A DNA stretch of 64,000 nt from Beijerinckiaceae bacterium (GTDB lineage: Bacteria; Pseudomonadota; Alphaproteobacteria; Rhizobiales; Beijerinckiaceae), in the NCBI GenBank assembly GCA_947454485.1, contig CANGJJ010000010.1, positions 1 through 64,000 on the forward strand. Reading direction: 5' to 3'. Below, one piece after another: positions 1 through 12,349 of this stretch. The first letter of the stretch is position 1, and the number at the start of each line of letters is the position of its first letter. The notes under the pieces are model-generated. The model saw only the letters and a list, made by a program, of their open reading frames with translations, had not been told where the DNA came from and did not search any database. The translations under genes and the position numbers were made by a program.

Positions 1-725
1 TCCACTTTTTTGTTGTCGGGTATGTTCAGCTTATTGATAAAATCTTTGGTCAGTTCGAAAAATAATTTCGTTTGCCTGGCACTGTTTTGCGGGATGCTAC
101 AGCCTAGGAATGTCTCATAAAAATACTGCGCAGCAGCATCGCGATTTTCTGCGGTCATCGCGTCATCATAGACAAAGGCCTTCCAGCTCTTTGTATTCAG
201 TGCTGTGACGCCAACCTCGACAAATGCTCCTATTTTGTAAAATCGAGCGTGCGGCGTTAGGAATAGGTTTCGCATGAATTCCAAAGTCATGCTCTCGCCG
301 TCCTTGAAAGTGAATCCCGACTGAAACTCGGCTTTGATTACGCCAATCATGCGTTGCGCTGGATACCCGGTGCTGCCACACCAAACCACGAGCACCCCGC
401 CGGGAATTCTTCTGCTCGTTTGAGCTTTGGCGAGTTTGTTCACCACTTCCTTGGAACCATGAACGAAGTCGGTATCATCCGCATCTATGAGTTTTCGCGA
501 AATATCTAGCATTCCGCCAGCGCCAGTATCGCTGACATTGAACTCCATACACTTGGCGACACTTCCGAGTGCCGCGATAATTCGATCATGTAATGCCGAA
601 CTGTCTGCTGGGCCCAAGATCGTGAGTGAGGTGCCATAGCGTGTTTGACCAATGTTTCGGTCCTCCGACCTTTGGAGAACTTGATGAATTACTAGCCGAG
701 AAATGGTCAGGTTTTCGAAAAGCAT
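1..725 (-). CDS. NdpA/NA37-family nucleoid-associated protein, C-terminus beyond window edge
   Basis: The minus-strand frame is open from an ATG at 725 to the left edge, giving 241 codons with no stop. A TAA sits directly before the ATG in frame and GAGGA lies about 8 bases upstream, which fixes the start. The protein begins MLFENLTISRLVIHQV. Around residues 90-150 it has the pattern DFVHGS..LAKAQ..R.IPGGVLVV..G, then VIKAEFQSGF and LFLTPHARFYKIGAF, and later AAQYFYETFLGCS. This is the pattern I associate with NA37 (PF04245) nucleoid-associated proteins, which are usually about 340 residues long. GC is clearly lower than in the genes to the right. It ends beside a tRNA 3' fragment, so it is probably cargo of an integrated element. 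Family assignment is from memory of conserved positions; DNA binding is inferred. Confidence 0.62.
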   Translation of the reverse strand, partial: MLFENLTISRLVIHQVLQRSEDRNIGQTRYGTSLTILGPADSSALHDRIIAALGSVAKCMEFNVSDTGAGGMLDISRKLIDADDTDFVHGSKEVVNKLAKAQTSRRIPGGVLVVWCGSTGYPAQRMIGVIKAEFQSGFTFKDGESMTLEFMRNLFLTPHARFYKIGAFVEVGVTALNTKSWKAFVYDDAMTAENRDAAAQYFYETFLGCSIPQNSARQTKLFFELTKDFINKLNIPDNKKV

Positions 726-831: not shown

Positions 832-868
832 GTGGTGGGTGCGGGTTCGACCCCCGCCGTCCGCACCA
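832..868 (+). other. tRNA-Leu 3'-end fragment, probable attachment site
   Basis: Bases 841-857 form a perfect T-arm (stem GCGGG/CCCGC, loop TTCGACC). They are followed by CGTCCGC, the 3' acceptor strand of a tRNA-Leu type, then A and an encoded CCA ending at 868. The matching 5' acceptor GCGGACG, D arm and anticodon arm are absent in the 90 bases upstream, so this is not a complete tRNA. A tRNA 3' end without its 5' half is what integrases leave at the distal end of an element. It marks a boundary between low-GC DNA on the left and ordinary chromosome on the right. The intact tRNA should lie left of the window. Confidence 0.72.
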
Positions 869-872
869 AAAC

Positions 873-2069
873 TCATCCTTTATAGAGCCAGTCCACCTTC
901 GCCATGAAGCTTTGCGCGGTCAGGCTGCGCAAGGTGAGATCGCGCGCAAAGGCGAGTGGCCCGCTCATATGATAGATCGTGCCTTGTCGACGTGAGGCGA
1001 GGACGACGGCCTGTGCGCGCGCGCTGCGGGCCCGCTCATAGGCGCTGAGCGCAGCGGGCACATTTTGCGCATTGCGCATTGCTTGCCCCAAGGCGGCGGC
1101 ATCTTCGATGGCTTGCGCGGCACCTTGCGCGAAGAAAGGCAGCATTGGATGGGCTGCATCGCCGAGCAAAGCCACGCGGCCCAGACTCCAGCGGCGCATG
1201 GGATTGCGATCAAACAGCGGCCAGCGTTTCCACACGCCTACGCGCTCAACAAGCGTGCGCGCATCGCGGTGCCATTGGGCAAAGCGCGGTGCAACTTGCG
1301 TGGGCTCGCCTGAGATCGCCCATAGGTCCGCGGCTTCTTCACCGCGCCAATCATCTTCTGTAATCGCGACAATATTGACCAAGGTACCGCCGCGCAGCGG
1401 ATAATGAACGAGATGGCTTTTGGCGCCGAGCCACAGATTTGTTTCGAGCTTGCGCAAAGCTGCAGGTGCGTCATCCATTGGCAAAAGCGCGCGCCACGCG
1501 GTGCGGCCTGACCATACGGGTTGGTCATTGGAGCCGAGTGCGAGCAAAGCGCGATGTTGCGAGCGCAGACCATCTGCAGCAATCAACACATCAGCATGCA
1601 GGCGCTGTGTGTCTTCGCCGCTGCGCAAGGCCACTTCAATGCCGGTGCTATTGTCTGCAAAGCCAGCAACACTGGTGCCGGTGTTGACGGTGATATGTCG
1701 TTCGCCCGCACAAGCCTCCAGCAGAACGCGCTGCAGATCGGCGCGGTGGATCGACAGATAAGGCGCGCCCCAGCGCAGTTCAGCAACAGGGCCGAGCGGC
1801 ATACGCGCCAGCTCTTGCCCATCGCGCGCGCGTCGCAGGCGCAACAGTTCAGGCGTACTGGCGTGACGCTGCACCTGCTCCAAAATTCCAAGATCGCGCA
1901 GAACACGCGTGGCATTGGGACCAAGCTGGAGGCCAGCGCCCGCTTCTTCGAGGAGTGGTGCGCGCTCATACAGGCTCACGCGCGCGCCCGCTTTGGCCAG
2001 TGCCAGAGCCGCTGTCAGGCCGCCAATGCCGGCGCCTGCAATCACTGCATGGAGATTGCTGTCAGACAT
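873..2069 (-). CDS. FAD-dependent aromatic monooxygenase (salicylate/3-hydroxybenzoate hydroxylase-like)
   Basis: A 398-residue group A flavoprotein hydroxylase, which would use NAD(P)H and O2 to hydroxylate an aromatic acid. Visible motifs are the ADP-binding GAGIGG at residues 12-17 with acidic E35 ending the second strand, the DG motif (AADG, about 164-167), and the GD motif LLGDAAHP (about 301-308), which contacts FAD and the pyrophosphate. Length is normal for salicylate hydroxylases and 6-hydroxynicotinate 3-monooxygenases. It is 21 bases downstream of the zinc-finger gene on the same strand. A homologue lies at 16429-17616. The substrate cannot be decided from sequence. The stop lies only a few bases from the tRNA fragment. 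Confidence 0.88.
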   Translation of the reverse strand: MSDSNLHAVIAGAGIGGLTAALALAKAGARVSLYERAPLLEEAGAGLQLGPNATRVLRDLGILEQVQRHASTPELLRLRRARDGQELARMPLGPVAELRWGAPYLSIHRADLQRVLLEACAGERHITVNTGTSVAGFADNSTGIEVALRSGEDTQRLHADVLIAADGLRSQHRALLALGSNDQPVWSGRTAWRALLPMDDAPAALRKLETNLWLGAKSHLVHYPLRGGTLVNIVAITEDDWRGEEAADLWAISGEPTQVAPRFAQWHRDARTLVERVGVWKRWPLFDRNPMRRWSLGRVALLGDAAHPMLPFFAQGAAQAIEDAAALGQAMRNAQNVPAALSAYERARSARAQAVVLASRRQGTIYHMSGPLAFARDLTLRSLTAQSFMAKVDWLYKG

Positions 2070-2090: not shown

Positions 2091-2339
2091 TCAGGCCGCT
2101 GTCTCCGGGTGATATTCGCAGTCTGCGGGCTGTGCATGGCCATGCAGAGCGCCATCATAGACATAGAGGGTCGAGCAATAGGGGCAGACCGCTTCCGTGT
2201 CGTCGCCCATGTCGATGAAGATATGGGGATGATCGAAGGGCGGCAGAGCGCCAACGCACATGAACTCCTTCGCACCGACCCGCACCGAGCGGAGGCCGGG
2301 CTGGTTGTGGAAATGTGGCGTGGCGTGATCGGATGCCAT
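2091..2339 (-). CDS. zf-CHCC zinc-finger domain protein
   Basis: An 82-residue protein starting MASDHATPHF. The frame is open further upstream, but the ATG at 2339 with GGGGA just before it fits the family. The pattern is that of zf-CHCC proteins (PF10276): a first Cys in EFMCVG (C28), His in FDHPHIF, then VCPYCSTLYV (C52, C55). In mitochondria the domain occurs in the complex I subunit NDUFS6; the bacterial copies probably bind Zn and are of uncertain role. It sits between a secreted hypothetical protein and the FAD hydroxylase on the same strand. Family confident, function not known. Confidence 0.85.
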   Translation of the reverse strand: MASDHATPHFHNQPGLRSVRVGAKEFMCVGALPPFDHPHIFIDMGDDTEAVCPYCSTLYVYDGALHGHAQPADCEYHPETAA

Positions 2340-3758: not shown

Positions 3759-4498
3759 AAAGGCCCGCCGACGAGGCCGTGCTTTTGTTTGATGGCTTTG
3801 GTTGAAGGCGCTGCGAGAAAATCTTGCAGCGCCTTTGCTGCATCTGGCGCCGCAGATGTGGCGGGAATGGCACTGGAGAAATTGGTGTAATTTTGCACTG
3901 CCTCCGGCAGCGGGCCGAGATAAGCAATGCCGCCTTCATGCACCAATTCACTCACCTGCTGGAAGGCAAGATCAACCTCGCCCCTGCGCAAATATTCAGC
4001 TGAGGGCACGCCGGGTTTGGTTTGAACAAGGCGGTCTTTGACCTGCGCAGTCACGCCGAGTTTTTCGAACAGGACAGGGATATAGGCGCCGCTTGGTCCC
4101 GTCGAATACGCGATCTTTTTGGCATTGAGAATGGCAGCTTTCAGCCCATCGGGTGTTGAGACATCAGCGCTCATACCGCTGGTCATGCCAACACCAACGC
4201 CCACTTTGGCAAGGTCAGCGCGGCTGCCCGCTTTGGCATGATTGGTCTTGATGAACAGATCAATCTCGGGTGCGCCCACGATCACCAGATCATAGACCGC
4301 GCCACTGGGGATGATGTCTTTGATATGCACTGTGCTCGACCATGTGGTCTCGACTGTGTGGCCGGTTGTTTTTGTAAATTGCTCGACGAGCTCGACATAG
4401 GCCTCTTTTACCGCGCCTGATGAAAGAACGCGCAGGTCAGCCGCTTGTGCAGGTGAGATGAGGGCAAGAAGGCAGAGAGTCCTAGCGAAGAATTTCAT
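3755..4498 (-). CDS. ModA-like periplasmic substrate-binding protein
   Basis: A 247-residue exported protein from the ATG at 4498 (signal MKFFARTLCLLALISPAQAA). The mature part follows the molybdate-binding protein pattern: DLRVLSSGAVKEAY near the start, YDLVIVGAPE, KKIAYSTGPSGAYI and RRGEVDLAFQQVSEL, then a C-terminal lobe ending AIKQKHGL. Such proteins deliver oxyanions or small acids to an ABC permease, but no permease or ATPase gene is adjacent. Stand-alone members of this branch are common in Hyphomicrobiales, and their ligand need not be molybdate. The window encodes several molybdenum enzymes, which makes molybdate plausible but unproven. Confidence 0.8.
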   Translation of the reverse strand: MKFFARTLCLLALISPAQAADLRVLSSGAVKEAYVELVEQFTKTTGHTVETTWSSTVHIKDIIPSGAVYDLVIVGAPEIDLFIKTNHAKAGSRADLAKVGVGVGMTSGMSADVSTPDGLKAAILNAKKIAYSTGPSGAYIPVLFEKLGVTAQVKDRLVQTKPGVPSAEYLRRGEVDLAFQQVSELVHEGGIAYLGPLPEAVQNYTNFSSAIPATSAAPDAAKALQDFLAAPSTKAIKQKHGLVGGPF

Positions 4499-8014: not shown

Positions 8015-8836
8015 ATGGCTCAAGCTCACAGCGCCCACATCATTGATCTCGGCGATCCGATCTTTTCGCGCATCCGTTCGGAGGCGGAGGAGAGTGTTGC
8101 GCGTGAGCCTGAGTTTGCGAGCCTTCTGGTTGCGAGCGTCCTGAACCATGAGACGCTGGAAAGCGCGGTGGTGCATCGTGTCGCGACCCGCCTCGATCAT
8201 GCCGATATGTCCAGCGATCTCATTCGCCAAACCTATCTGGAGATCATCGCGCGCGACCCCTCGATTGGGGAGGCTTTCCGCGCCGACATTATCGCGGTGG
8301 CAGATCGTGATCCTGCTTGCATGCGCCTGATTGAGCCGCTGCTCTATTTCAAGGGTTTCCACGCTTTGCAGACGCATCGCCTCGCCCATGCCCTGTGGAA
8401 GGCGGGTCGTCGTGATTTTGCTCTGTGGCTGCAGAGCCGTGCCTCTGAAGTGTTCCAGACCGATATCAATCCGGCTGCTCGCATCGGCAAGGGCATTTTC
8501 CTTGATCATGCGACGGGGCTTGTCGTCGGCCAGACCTGCGTCATTGAAGATGATGTCTCGATCTTGCATGGCGTGACGCTGGGCGGCACGGGCAAAGAGC
8601 GGGGCGACCGTCATCCCAAGATCCGCAAGGGCGTCTTGATTGGCGCGGGTGCGAAGATCATCGGCAATATCGAAGTGGGCCATTGCGCGCGTATTGCGGC
8701 GGGCTCCGTCGTGCTGAGCCCGGTCCCCCATAACAAGACCGTTGCGGGCGTGCCGGCGCGGGTTGTGGGTGAGGCGGGTTGCGCTGAGCCTGCCCGCAGC
8801 ATGGACCAGATTCTGGCCGAGAAACTCGAATCCTGA
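8015..8836 (+). CDS. cysE: serine O-acetyltransferase
   Basis: A 273-residue CysE: it transfers acetyl from acetyl-CoA to L-serine, the first step of cysteine synthesis. The start is the ATG at 8015, with GGAG in TGAGGAGTAATTGT before it; an upstream GTG is less likely. The N-terminal helical domain (about 15-145) is followed by a left-handed beta-helix of hexapeptide repeats. Catalytic and substrate residues can be placed in TDINPAARIG, DHATGLVVG, ILHGVTLGGTGK and DRHPKI. The C-terminus beyond AGVPARVVG is short. The DUF3126 gene follows by 62 bases on the same strand. Confidence 0.95.
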   Translation: MAQAHSAHIIDLGDPIFSRIRSEAEESVAREPEFASLLVASVLNHETLESAVVHRVATRLDHADMSSDLIRQTYLEIIARDPSIGEAFRADIIAVADRDPACMRLIEPLLYFKGFHALQTHRLAHALWKAGRRDFALWLQSRASEVFQTDINPAARIGKGIFLDHATGLVVGQTCVIEDDVSILHGVTLGGTGKERGDRHPKIRKGVLIGAGAKIIGNIEVGHCARIAAGSVVLSPVPHNKTVAGVPARVVGEAGCAEPARSMDQILAEKLES

Positions 8837-8898
8837 TCCGCCTTGCGGCCTTGGGTCTTTTCTGGCACTCCACACGGATCCAAGGAGCGGCTTTTCAG

Positions 8899-9294
8899 AT
8901 GGACAAGATCGAACTTCGCAAGCTGCAGGAATTCCTGCGCCACGCCTTCGACAATCAGACACTGCGCGTCAGTCTCGACCCGAAGGACAGTGAAGCGGCC
9001 ATTGTGACGATGGGCGAGCGTCAGATCGCGCGTTTGACCGTCGATGATGAAGATGGTGACCGGTCTTTTGCCTTTGAGATGAAGATCCCGGTGGGACGCG
9101 AAGTGCTGCAGGAATATCTGCGCCGCCTGTTCGAGACCGATAAGCTCACCATCGTGGCCCGCGCGCGCAAGGCCGACTCGGTTGAGCTGAATTGCGGTGA
9201 GGATTTTCTCGGCGTCATCTCAGCGGATGATCCGCGCGGCAATTCCTACACGCTGCAGATCGCCATCCTCGATTTCGATCTCGACGACTTCTGA
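8899..9294 (+). CDS. DUF3126 protein, two tandem copies of the domain
   Basis: A 131-residue protein from the ATG at 8899; AAGGAG lies 11 bases upstream. The family is normally about 70-80 residues. Here residues about 6-65 and 70-131 align with each other: KLQEFLRHAFDNQTLRV with VLQEYLRRLFETDKLTI, then VDDEDGDRSFAFEMKIPV with ADDPRGNSYTLQIAILDF. The second copy is closer to what I recall of the family (GEDFLGVISADD, ending DFDLDDF). The first copy supplies the typical start MDKIELRKLQ. This looks like an internal duplication or fusion. The domain's role is unknown. It follows cysE and may be cotranscribed. Confidence 0.85.
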   Translation: MDKIELRKLQEFLRHAFDNQTLRVSLDPKDSEAAIVTMGERQIARLTVDDEDGDRSFAFEMKIPVGREVLQEYLRRLFETDKLTIVARARKADSVELNCGEDFLGVISADDPRGNSYTLQIAILDFDLDDF

Positions 9295-9933
9295 TTAGCG
9301 CGACAGGCTCGCCAGCAATTGGCTGGTGCTGACTGTGAGCTCTTCCCATCTTGTCAGATGGATCGCACTGAACCGCAACCGCAGGTCCAGTGCGCCATAG
9401 CGCATTTCGCTCAGACATATACGATGCTGTGCATCTGCCTCGCTGCTGGCTGGTGAGCAACGCGCCCAAAACAGGCGCCCCTCAGGCGGTGTCATGAAGA
9501 TCTCTTCACCCGGAAAGGGTGAGGACTGCTGAAAGCGTCGCATCACAAGACCTGCATCACCGGCAATTGTCTGCGCGTCGAGATAGCGCGCAAAGAGCCG
9601 CGCCACCTTGTCTCGCGGCTCCAGCCTGATGTCTTTGGGGCGCAGCGTGATGGTCAGCAGAGTTTCGAGCGGCAGCTGATTGGCGCGCTCTCCGGCGGGG
9701 CTGAAATCAGGCAGGGCGACCAGAAGATCAAGATCGTCATAGCTGCGGTGCAGGGGGGCTGCAGGGCTTCGCGTATAGCGCGTGTCGATCTGCAGTTGCT
9801 GCGTGCCTATGGCAACATCCGCGACGATGAAAGGAGATGGGCCGCGTGAGCTGGCGCGCATCAGCCAGACGGCTGATCCCAAGACCAGGAGCAGCGCAGC
9901 CCCAATGGCGGCGGCAAGGGTGAGAAATCGCAT
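9295..9933 (-). CDS. membrane-anchored protein of unknown function
   Basis: About 212 residues from the ATG at 9933; a TTG three codons earlier is also open. One N-terminal hydrophobic segment (residues about 3-25) is followed by RASSRG, so the rest is probably periplasmic. The soluble part has few Cys (C in RCSP and RICLS) and no motif I recognise; TLRPKDIRLEPRDKVARLFARYL is its most distinctive stretch and should be searchable. It abuts the DUF3126 stop tail to tail and diverges from the gamma-carbonic anhydrase gene. Confidence 0.6.
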   Translation of the reverse strand: MRFLTLAAAIGAALLLVLGSAVWLMRASSRGPSPFIVADVAIGTQQLQIDTRYTRSPAAPLHRSYDDLDLLVALPDFSPAGERANQLPLETLLTITLRPKDIRLEPRDKVARLFARYLDAQTIAGDAGLVMRRFQQSSPFPGEEIFMTPPEGRLFWARCSPASSEADAQHRICLSEMRYGALDLRLRFSAIHLTRWEELTVSTSQLLASLSR

Positions 9934-10035
9934 GGATGGCAATCATCGAATCAAAAAGCTGGCGCATCATGCACGTCGCGCCTCTTTGCCTGCAAGGCCC
10001 GCCATGGCATGTTGGGGTCAACAACAGGAGATCTC

Positions 10036-10566
10036 ATGCCGCTCTATTCACTGGATGGCCAAGCGCCCGATCTGCCCGCAGCGGGCCTCTATTGGATTGC
10101 ACCCGATGCACATGTGATTGGCAAGGTGCGCCTTGGCGAAGAGGTGGGCATCTGGTTCGGTTGCACATTGCGCGGTGACAATCAGTGGATCAGCATTGGC
10201 GCGCGCTCGAATGTGCAAGAGGGGACTGTGATGCACACCGATATCGGCAGCCCTTTGACCATCGGCGAGGGCTGCACCATCGGTCACAAGGCCATGCTGC
10301 ATGGCTGCACGATTGGCAACAATACGCTGATCGGTATGGGTGCGACGATCCTCAACAATGCCAAGATCGGCAACAATTGCCTTGTGGGTGCCAATGCTCT
10401 TGTGACCGAGGGCAAGGAATATCCCGATGGCAGTCTGATTGTCGGCAGTCCCGCGCGCGTCATACGCCAACTCGATGAAGCGGCTATCGCCAGACTCGGC
10501 AAATCTGCCGATGGCTATGTGCGCAACTGGAAACGCTTTGCTGCTGGTTTAAAGGTTGTGGGTTGA
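10036..10566 (+). CDS. gamma-class carbonic anhydrase family protein (hexapeptide-repeat)
   Basis: A 176-residue left-handed beta-helix protein from the ATG at 10036, with CAGGAG immediately upstream. Zn-ligand positions of the family are visible as H in VMHTD, H in IGHKAML and H in MLHGCTIG. Neighbouring hexapeptides read IGEGCTIG and IGNNTLIG. Length and the C-terminal helix match the YrdA/PaaY/CaiE group, which either hydrates CO2 or hydrolyses thioesters. It ends at the base before the GT2 stop, tail to tail. Family is sure, activity is not. Confidence 0.9.
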   Translation: MPLYSLDGQAPDLPAAGLYWIAPDAHVIGKVRLGEEVGIWFGCTLRGDNQWISIGARSNVQEGTVMHTDIGSPLTIGEGCTIGHKAMLHGCTIGNNTLIGMGATILNNAKIGNNCLVGANALVTEGKEYPDGSLIVGSPARVIRQLDEAAIARLGKSADGYVRNWKRFAAGLKVVG

Positions 10567-11415
10567 TCAAGGCGTGTCGCTTAACTCCTTTTTGAAAAGC
10601 GACAGAGCTTTATGGACAATTCCAGATTGGGTCCATGATTGGAGAGGCGCCTTGACGGAGTTCAAGGCGTCCAAAGTGTTTTTCGTTTCTTGTGCAACGC
10701 GCTCGGGCGTCAATGTCGCGCCTTCGCGCGCAAGATGGCGGTAGGTTCGGCCTTCGAGCCATTTGGCTGAGAAACAGAGTTGATCAGCGAATTTGACAGC
10801 CTCGATCGCTGGAGACGTTTCGCCCGCTGATGCTTTGAGATAGTGCTGGCAGATCGCTTTTGGGACGACATAAACTTCAAAGCCGCGCGAACGTGCTGTG
10901 AAGGAGTAATCGCAATCCGAACAGATGAACAGCATCGATTCATCTAGCAGGCCGATCTCACGCACCATGCTGGCGCGCAGCAAAAGACAAGTGCCAGTCG
11001 CCCAGAAGGTTGTGTAAGGCACTGTGGGGTGGCGCAGGTGCCCATTGTGGACGCCCCAGGGATAAGCATCGAGAGAGCCTGCCCAAGCAATCTCACCCGT
11101 CGGATTCACCTGAATGGGTGCGGCTATGCCCGCAGATGGATGCGTATCGAGGCATTTGACCAGCTCAGCCAGCGCATTCTTGTGGAGATAGGCATCTTGC
11201 GTCAGGACGAGAATATATTCGGTCTGTGAGTCATAGGCATATTTGCGCAAGCCTTCATTCACCGCGCGGGTGTAAAGAATGTTGTCATTCGTATTGTCGC
11301 GTACGAAAATCTCTGTCGCCACCCCTTCTTGTTGCGCGAGTGCAGCCAAGCAGGCTTTCAGCTCTTTTTCCTTCTTGTAGAAGGGGATGATGACGGGGAT
11401 TGTTTTGTTGGTCAT
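10567..11415 (-). CDS. family 2 glycosyltransferase
   Basis: A 282-residue GT-A fold enzyme. The N-terminus (VIIPFYKKEKELKACLAAL) and FVRDNTNDN fit the nucleotide-sugar-binding half. VLTQDAYLHKNAL holds the DxD-like position, and FWATGTCLLLRASMVREIGLLDE followed by CSDCDYSFTARSRGF is the acceptor-side ED/DCD motif of rhamnosyl- and similar transferases. No membrane helix is present, so it is cytosolic. It probably builds a surface polysaccharide or a glycan on a protein. Base composition is slightly lower in GC than the flanking genes. The donor sugar cannot be inferred. Confidence 0.87.
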   Translation of the reverse strand: MTNKTIPVIIPFYKKEKELKACLAALAQQEGVATEIFVRDNTNDNILYTRAVNEGLRKYAYDSQTEYILVLTQDAYLHKNALAELVKCLDTHPSAGIAAPIQVNPTGEIAWAGSLDAYPWGVHNGHLRHPTVPYTTFWATGTCLLLRASMVREIGLLDESMLFICSDCDYSFTARSRGFEVYVVPKAICQHYLKASAGETSPAIEAVKFADQLCFSAKWLEGRTYRHLAREGATLTPERVAQETKNTLDALNSVKAPLQSWTQSGIVHKALSLFKKELSDTP

Positions 11416-11515
11416 AGGGACCGCGCAGCCTTTTGATACTTAATTTTACTTCTCTCGAAGCTCAGTTCGATGATAGATACACTTGTAATTGTTTGCAATA
11501 TAGAGGCTTGCGTGG

Positions 11516-12289
11516 ATGGTTGACGTTATGCGCTCCCAGCCAATCATCAATGCGCCGCGCATTGTCGTCGCGCTGATTGGTGTGCTCGCGCTCATTCATG
11601 GCGTGAAGGAATATCTGCTCGACGACCCCTCCTATGCCTTCGTCTTGCAAACTTTCGCTTTCGTGCCGGCCCGTCTCAGCCTGTCATTCGATCCGGATGG
11701 TCTGGCTGATGCGATAGGGGCATTGACGCGCTATCAGGATTTGGCAGCGGCGAAATTTTTCCTCGCCGATGGGTCTTTGGCATGGTGGCAGCTCATCACA
11801 TTCGCCTTCCTGCATGTCGACTGGATGCATGTCATCATCAACAGTGTCTGGCTCTTGGCTTTTGGCGCACCGTTGGCCCAGCGTTTTGGCGAGCTGCGCT
11901 TCATCACCTTCTTTCTCATCACCAGCGCGCTTGGCATTGCCTTTCACTATGCGCTGCATCCGATGAGTTTTGTGCCGATCATTGGCGCATCTGCGGGTGT
12001 GTCGGGTCTGACAGCTGGCGCGATGTTGTTTGTGTTCCAACCCTTCGCACCTTTGGGTGATTATGCATCGCCCTCTTTTCATGAGAGGCCGCTGCGGCTG
12101 ACGCAGTTGTTCACCAACCGCCGTGTTGTCGCGTTTCTGGTCGTCTGGTTCCTGGCCAACTTCGTCTTTGGCGCTTTCTCTCAGCAGCTGGGAATCACGC
12201 AAGGGCCAGTTGCCTGGGAGGGTCACGCTGGCGGCTTTATCGCAGGTCTGCTACTCTTCAAGCTGTTCGATCCGAGACGGCACAGCTGA
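11516..12289 (+). CDS. rhomboid family intramembrane serine protease
   Basis: A 257-residue multi-pass membrane protein (about six helices). The catalytic serine is in GASAGVSG (about residues 155-162) and the catalytic histidine in WEGHAGGF near the C-terminus. HVDWMHVIINSVWLLAFG supplies the conserved His/Asn of the oxyanion region. It would cleave membrane-anchored substrates within the inner membrane. The start ATG at 11516 has GAGG upstream; a second ATG at 11528 is possible. About 100 AT-rich bases before it probably hold its promoter. It is followed by a CBS protein on the same strand. Confidence 0.92.
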   Translation: MVDVMRSQPIINAPRIVVALIGVLALIHGVKEYLLDDPSYAFVLQTFAFVPARLSLSFDPDGLADAIGALTRYQDLAAAKFFLADGSLAWWQLITFAFLHVDWMHVIINSVWLLAFGAPLAQRFGELRFITFFLITSALGIAFHYALHPMSFVPIIGASAGVSGLTAGAMLFVFQPFAPLGDYASPSFHERPLRLTQLFTNRRVVAFLVVWFLANFVFGAFSQQLGITQGPVAWEGHAGGFIAGLLLFKLFDPRRHS

Positions 12290-12349
12290 CGCCGTAAGGC
12301 CCCTGCGGCGATCAGGCACCTGATACCAACGGGGCGCAGGGAGAGACAC

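Follow-up and report, generated by a model that had tools for sequence, protein, structure and literature searches.

A small two-gene element at the 3′ end of tRNA-Leu(UAA) in a Beijerinckiaceae genome, probably an integrase-less CIME-like cassette carrying an NA37-RelA/SpoT operon

The left end of the window, the 64,000-bp stretch analysed here (bases 1-64000 of contig C10 in a 20-contig, 3.29-Mb draft genome, G000), carries the 3′ end of a tRNA-Leu-like sequence, which raises the question of whether an element was inserted at this locus and, if so, what it contains and how it moved. A sequence-only reading had recognised the tRNA-like 3′ end at 841-868, had assigned about 37 bases (832-868) to the fragment, and had taken it for the distal end of an island whose intact tRNA-Leu and integrase should lie outside to the left. 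No tRNA is found in the 64-kb window by ARAGORN. An intact tRNA-Leu(TAA) with an identical 3′ end is present on contig C6 (G000:C6:1453-1536, minus strand), in the orientation that matches the window copy, as that reading had anticipated. The identity extends over 31 bp rather than 37: positions 839-869 of the window (plus strand; GTGCGGGTTCGACCCCCGCCGTCCGCACCAA) match C6:1452-1482 at 31 of 31 bases and comprise the T-arm, acceptor 3′ strand, discriminator base and CCA of the tRNA plus one further A. The fragment is thus an exact copy of the 3′ end of the G000 tRNA-Leu(TAA), termed attR, and the expectation of finding a given 31-mer by chance in this genome is ~1e-12. The 5′ half of the tRNA is missing, as had been noted. 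The drop in base composition that the same reading had described is also seen, with a GC content of 0.467 in positions 1-838 and 0.584 to the right of the repeat, while on C6 the 1,451 bases just past the CCA end of the intact tRNA-Leu (C6:1-1451) have a GC content of 0.491 within flanks of about 0.585.

Comparison with related genomes, which the sequence-only reading had proposed as a check, reveals the corresponding empty site as a contiguous region in six genomes of the genus (G016, G005, G059, G060, G056 and G055). In all six, a xanthine phosphoribosyltransferase-like gene, (a truncated haemoglobin-like gene), an SDR gene and a KGG protein gene precede tRNA-Leu(UAA), which is followed by genes for an FAD monooxygenase and a small zinc-ribbon-like protein, and each empty site has a single tRNA 3′ end located about 33-58 bp from the monooxygenase match. 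In G000 the left neighbours of this site are on C6 and the right neighbours on C10, where the FAD-dependent monooxygenase gene (873-2069, minus strand; PF01494), found directly after tRNA-Leu(UAA) in the six relatives, and the zinc-ribbon-like gene (2091-2339, minus strand; named by eye and syntenic in relatives) form the host flank. When joined, the G000 flanks align through the tRNA into the monooxygenase gene with all six relatives. The RelA/SpoT gene carried between the flanks (see below) was sought in 50 other genomes of the genus and found in none. The repeat, the empty site and the lack of the cargo gene in the genomes searched together demonstrate that tRNA-Leu(UAA) received a lineage-specific insertion at its 3′ end, with the window fragment as the distal end of the inserted element. 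The notion that no insertion took place and that the fragment resembles a tRNA hairpin or gene end by chance alone has a negligible probability given the complete identity and matching orientation of the two copies, and the empty sites refute it.

The left edge of the window is a contig end rather than the interior of a large island. Contigs C6 and C10 both begin inside the element, whose left part is C6:1-1451 and whose right part, assigned by orientation and synteny together with its low GC content, is positions 1-838 of the window. The right part contains the 5′ portion (241 codons; 1-725, minus strand) of a gene for an NA37/YejK-like nucleoid-associated protein, identified by alignment to homologues and by matches to phrog_1974 and PF04245 (E=3.9e-11; 43.3 bits, above the cut-off of 24.6). 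The gene is cut at base 1 of the window and resumes at base 1 of C6, where its last 108 codons occupy positions 3-329 (plus strand). This short reading frame alone gives no Pfam match even at E=10, and its identity therefore derives from alignment to full-length homologues, which shows the window and C6 pieces to be the two ends of one NA37 gene. In comparison with the closest homologue, from Allorhizobium (L137), 23 nt are missing between C10 and C6, and the join is in frame (2+23+2=27 nt). A RelA/SpoT-domain gene, identified by its domain match, follows at C6:326-1309 (plus strand) and shares 4 nt (ATGA) with the end of the NA37 gene, an overlap that most homologous loci also have. The NA37 start lies 113 bp from attR, and the intervening sub-terminal region (726-838), which is delimited by position and low GC content only, presumably holds the promoter of the operon on those same grounds. 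When the element ends were compared with all collected loci only the coding parts matched convincingly, and 726-838 matched nothing. Since the two NA37 halves lack just ~23 nt, the body of the element amounts to 1451+~23+838=~2312 bp, or ~2.34 kb with one repeat, although C6 and C10 are unjoined in the assembly. The order is tRNA-Leu, RelA/SpoT gene, NA37 gene and 31-bp repeat. Hence the expectation of a tRNA and an integrase to the left holds for the tRNA, on C6, and fails for the integrase: the ~2.3 kb examined, the 23-nt gap aside, encodes no integrase, recombinase or transfer gene, while the distal 3′-end repeat and the proximal intact tRNA that characterise tRNA-integrated elements are both retained, as are the att sites of a CIME-like element. 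Both the integrase and the primase module of P4-like phage satellites are missing.

Five PF00589 matches are found in G000, all of them outside the element, with two on C2, one on C1 and two on C5. We take the two on C2, judged by eye, to be XerC/XerD-like. The sole P4-type integrase of the genome is on C1, in an island of its own of ~8 kb (G000:C1:273859-282074) at tRNA-Arg(CCG) with a 52-bp repeat. The end of C5 (285515-285663) has 149 identical bases in common with the end of C6, near tRNA-Met(CAT), and also bears a serine-recombinase-like gene and two tyrosine-recombinase-like genes. The start of C1 (G000:C1:1-7558), close to tRNA-Ser(GGA), is very AT-rich (GC is 30-37% over its first 2 kb) and looks like another cut-off island. 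Neither this region nor contig C20 yielded evidence of being a missing middle part of the element, and in a search of contig-end overlaps that might place contigs between C6 and C10, none involved the start of either.

tRNA-Leu(UAA) is an integration site in three further relatives (G022, G007 and G041), in which 3′ fragments of the gene follow its 5′ part downstream or are separated from it. The fragment in G041 is ~7.8 kb downstream, the halves in G022 are 9 kb apart, and G007 has fragments at C63:65892, 97701 and 115310; integrases are close to the fragments in G007 and G022. Most of the fragments in relatives begin in or near the anticodon loop, whereas that in the window begins in the T-arm, so the window element likely used a different class of integrase. 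The region G007:C63:65329-115364 looks like a tandem accretion: beyond the intact tRNA-Leu(UAA) come three incomplete copies of its 3′ end, spread over 50 kb, and two of these have integrases nearby. In G022 the gene is split by an element that itself seems to bring a substitute tRNA-Leu(UAA) with a group I intron inside it (positions 3910-4400 of locus L131, G022 C1:5537001-5546000), the candidate intron matching RF00028 with 32 bits, below the gathering score, and an E value of 2.4e-6 in a 601-bp search.

The predicted structures of the cargo proteins were examined with the L137 homologues. The RelA/SpoT model (pLDDT 92.9) has the fold of a small alarmone synthetase and matches RelP (Z 19.3), CapRel (7ztb; Z 13.0) and FaRel2 (8pu4; Z 8.7). 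Residues R52, K54, S58, K62, R66, D78, R83, E152 and Q154 are invariant in 23 homologues, and the residues described in FaRel2 as responsible for ATP binding and catalysis (PMC11782079) correspond to invariant columns of this alignment. The enzyme thus has a RelA/SpoT synthetase domain with an intact predicted active site, like those of toxSAS proteins. Its partner matches only NA37 (PF04245) and, in its predicted structure, YejK, rather than a known toxSAS antitoxin family, and for this reason the pair is not classed as a toxSAS system. The NA37 model (pLDDT 82.4) matches E. coli YejK (9be2) with a Z score of 14.9, in keeping with membership of the NA37/YejK family, and the next matches are three KwaB entries with middling Z scores of 5.4-5.8 that cover residues 1-210 only. 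The Kiwa system comprises both KwaA and KwaB, and the element has no further gene that could encode KwaA. PADLOC returned only a weak, candidate-level match (PDC-S33).

The two genes travel together well beyond this genome. Of the 36 loci obtained by scanning species-representative genomes, 27 have NA37 directly before RelA/SpoT, most of these with the 4-nt overlap, and among 67 RelA/SpoT homologues in viral contigs, 64 have NA37 directly upstream. The operon is also present on several plasmids, among them an Ochrobactrum and a Klebsiella plasmid with the identical 4-nt overlap. Both proteins match PHROG families without an assigned function (phrog_1974 and phrog_32462), and no named NA37 plus RelA/SpoT system was found in the literature searched. 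Several chromosomal copies belong to islands that have tRNA 3′ repeats as their boundaries, at tRNA-Met (L141 and L148), tRNA-Ser (L155), tRNA-Phe (L158) and tRNA-Arg (L161). A locus in a Neisseria gonorrhoeae record (L111) has the pair with a broken RelA/SpoT frame, and its neighbours, viewed by eye, are presumably Mu-type prophage genes. The closest homologue of the NA37-RelA/SpoT pair (62% and 58% identity) is that of Allorhizobium (L137/L181). In Allorhizobium undicola (L181) the operon lies next to tRNA-Leu(UAA), oriented as in the window element, and forms the first cargo of an island of 14.7 kb that has genes for an integrase and a P4-type primase and looks like a phage satellite. The host tRNA-Leu(UAA) there is split in the anticodon loop by the island (L181 3811-4058 and 18521-18574), which supplies a complete, different tRNA-Leu(UAA) as a replacement. 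In a Gynuella MAG (L161), 3′ repeats of tRNA-Arg(CCU) occur at 8580, 11082 and 12244, and the first unit between them contains NA37 and RelA/SpoT alone. The region (8550-12296) consists of two tandem att-bounded units, neither of them with an integrase, the second with a Phd/Doc pair and the degenerate 3′ end of a RelA/SpoT gene; beyond the units there is no integrase among the longer ORFs and ordinary genes follow. This locus is an independent parallel to the cassette of the window.

We conclude that the inserted DNA is very probably an att-flanked, integrase-less, CIME-like cassette of ~2.34 kb that contains only the NA37-RelA/SpoT operon and was inserted site-specifically at the 3′ end of tRNA-Leu(UAA). 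A site-specific recombination at this 3′ end would leave an intact tRNA on one side and the 31-bp copy on the other, and a further exchange between the two repeats would release the element as a circle of 2,343 bp and leave an empty site behind. It is quite improbable that the element is instead a complete satellite or island with its own integrase, the middle of which was inserted within NA37 or lost at the contig break. Both contigs do end inside the element, the homologous Allorhizobium island is far larger and has integrase and primase genes, and other relatives have integrases beside their tRNA-Leu fragments. However, the break falls inside a single gene with complementary, in-frame halves and just the 23 nt missing, an intervening island would need to sit inside a gene that starts 113 bp from attR, no contig-end overlap or repeat suggests an insertion within NA37, and no unassigned P4-type integrase remains in the genome. 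How a cassette without a recombinase moved is a matter we infer: either the integrase came from another element, or movement preceded the loss of the parent element's own integrase. The cassette would thus be, or have been, moved by an integrase provided in trans or by a neighbouring element, and would most likely be what was left when a larger satellite or island lost its other parts, with a phage satellite a likelier source than an ICE or IME parent. Another reading, to which we give a little less than even weight, is that only the tRNA-proximal edge of an old island has survived here, the rest having been deleted together with the integrase; the cassette would then be a dead remnant, immobile as a unit, and the repeat a fossil. 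This reading is consistent with the position of the operon as first cargo beside tRNA-Leu in Allorhizobium, with the failure to see a mobilising integrase, and with the description of CIMEs as decayed elements that keep their att sites and lack recombination or transfer genes (PMC7563491). Yet the repeat copies are identical throughout, the two genes seem undamaged except for the gap in the assembly, and the recurrence of a two-gene unit between tRNA repeats in Gynuella fits a recurrent unit at least equally well. As the remnant reading differs from that of a mobile cassette mainly in present mobility, the two are not exclusive.

An att-flanked element without an integrase at a tRNA gene is of a kind already known, and the operon, which is conserved, widespread and so far uncharacterised, is the more interesting part of the finding. 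A toxin-antitoxin or abortive defence unit is suggested by the arrangement, in which the gene of a DNA-binding-type protein comes first and overlaps that of a toxSAS-like enzyme, and by its occurrence on phages, plasmids and islands. Our best guess is a role in phage defence or addiction, in which NA37, as the DNA-binding partner, would sense or bind DNA and keep in check a toxSAS-like enzyme, either an alarmone or a tRNA pyrophosphokinase. An unlikely alternative is that NA37 serves the mobile element as a regulator of excision or transfer and RelA/SpoT is a physiology gene, with no part in defence or a toxin-antitoxin pair. A precedent is NdpA2, an NA37-type protein that reportedly takes part in the control of ICE PAPI-1 transfer (PMC8565334), but conservation of the overlapping operon extends to phages, plasmids, satellites and bare cassettes that have no transfer genes. 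Combining the preferred readings of cargo and movement, we tentatively suggest, as something that is more doubtful than probable, an undescribed two-gene immune or addiction system in which a YejK/KwaB-like DNA-binding sensor controls a toxSAS-type effector, and which occurs on phages, satellites and plasmids and as a minimal tRNA-repeat cassette moved in trans by the integrases of other elements. If so, defence cassettes that consist of a single operon and have no recombinase are housed at tRNA genes. Judged from sequence, the operon, with its 27 chromosomal loci, 64 viral contigs and several plasmids, is a probable defence or addiction cargo. The cassette shows that a unit inserted at a tRNA can be this small and yet have precise boundaries. 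Should such cassettes move in trans, they will escape island finders that depend on an integrase.

Among known systems, the cargo enzyme resembles toxSAS and CapRel proteins in its synthetase fold and in its conserved ATP-binding and catalytic residues, but its partner is NA37/YejK-like and the enzyme is overall closer to the RelP/RelQ alarmone synthetases (Z about 19). The NA37 model matches YejK/NdpA and, next, KwaB, although the resemblance to KwaB is partial and middling and the element, unlike Kiwa, has no KwaA-like gene. The Allorhizobium undicola island shares the operon, the tRNA-Leu(UAA) neighbour and the orientation, and differs in its size, integrase and P4-type primase, and in having a Vsr/Dcm cluster, a split host tRNA and a replacement tRNA. 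The Gynuella unit is closer in form, with NA37 and RelA/SpoT alone between tRNA 3′ repeats over ~2.5 kb and no integrase, but it is at another tRNA, has the opposite orientation relative to that tRNA and is followed by a second tandem att-bounded unit. In contrast to the CIMEs of streptococci and the integrase-less ssrA islands of Dehalococcoides, for which a similar interpretation has been given (PMC3146451), the window cassette stands alone and is not in tandem with an ICE, IME or island. Like them, it has att repeats at the 3′ end of a target gene and contains cargo only, and its 2.3 kb falls within the 1.2-13 kb range of CIMEs in S. salivarius (PMC7563491).
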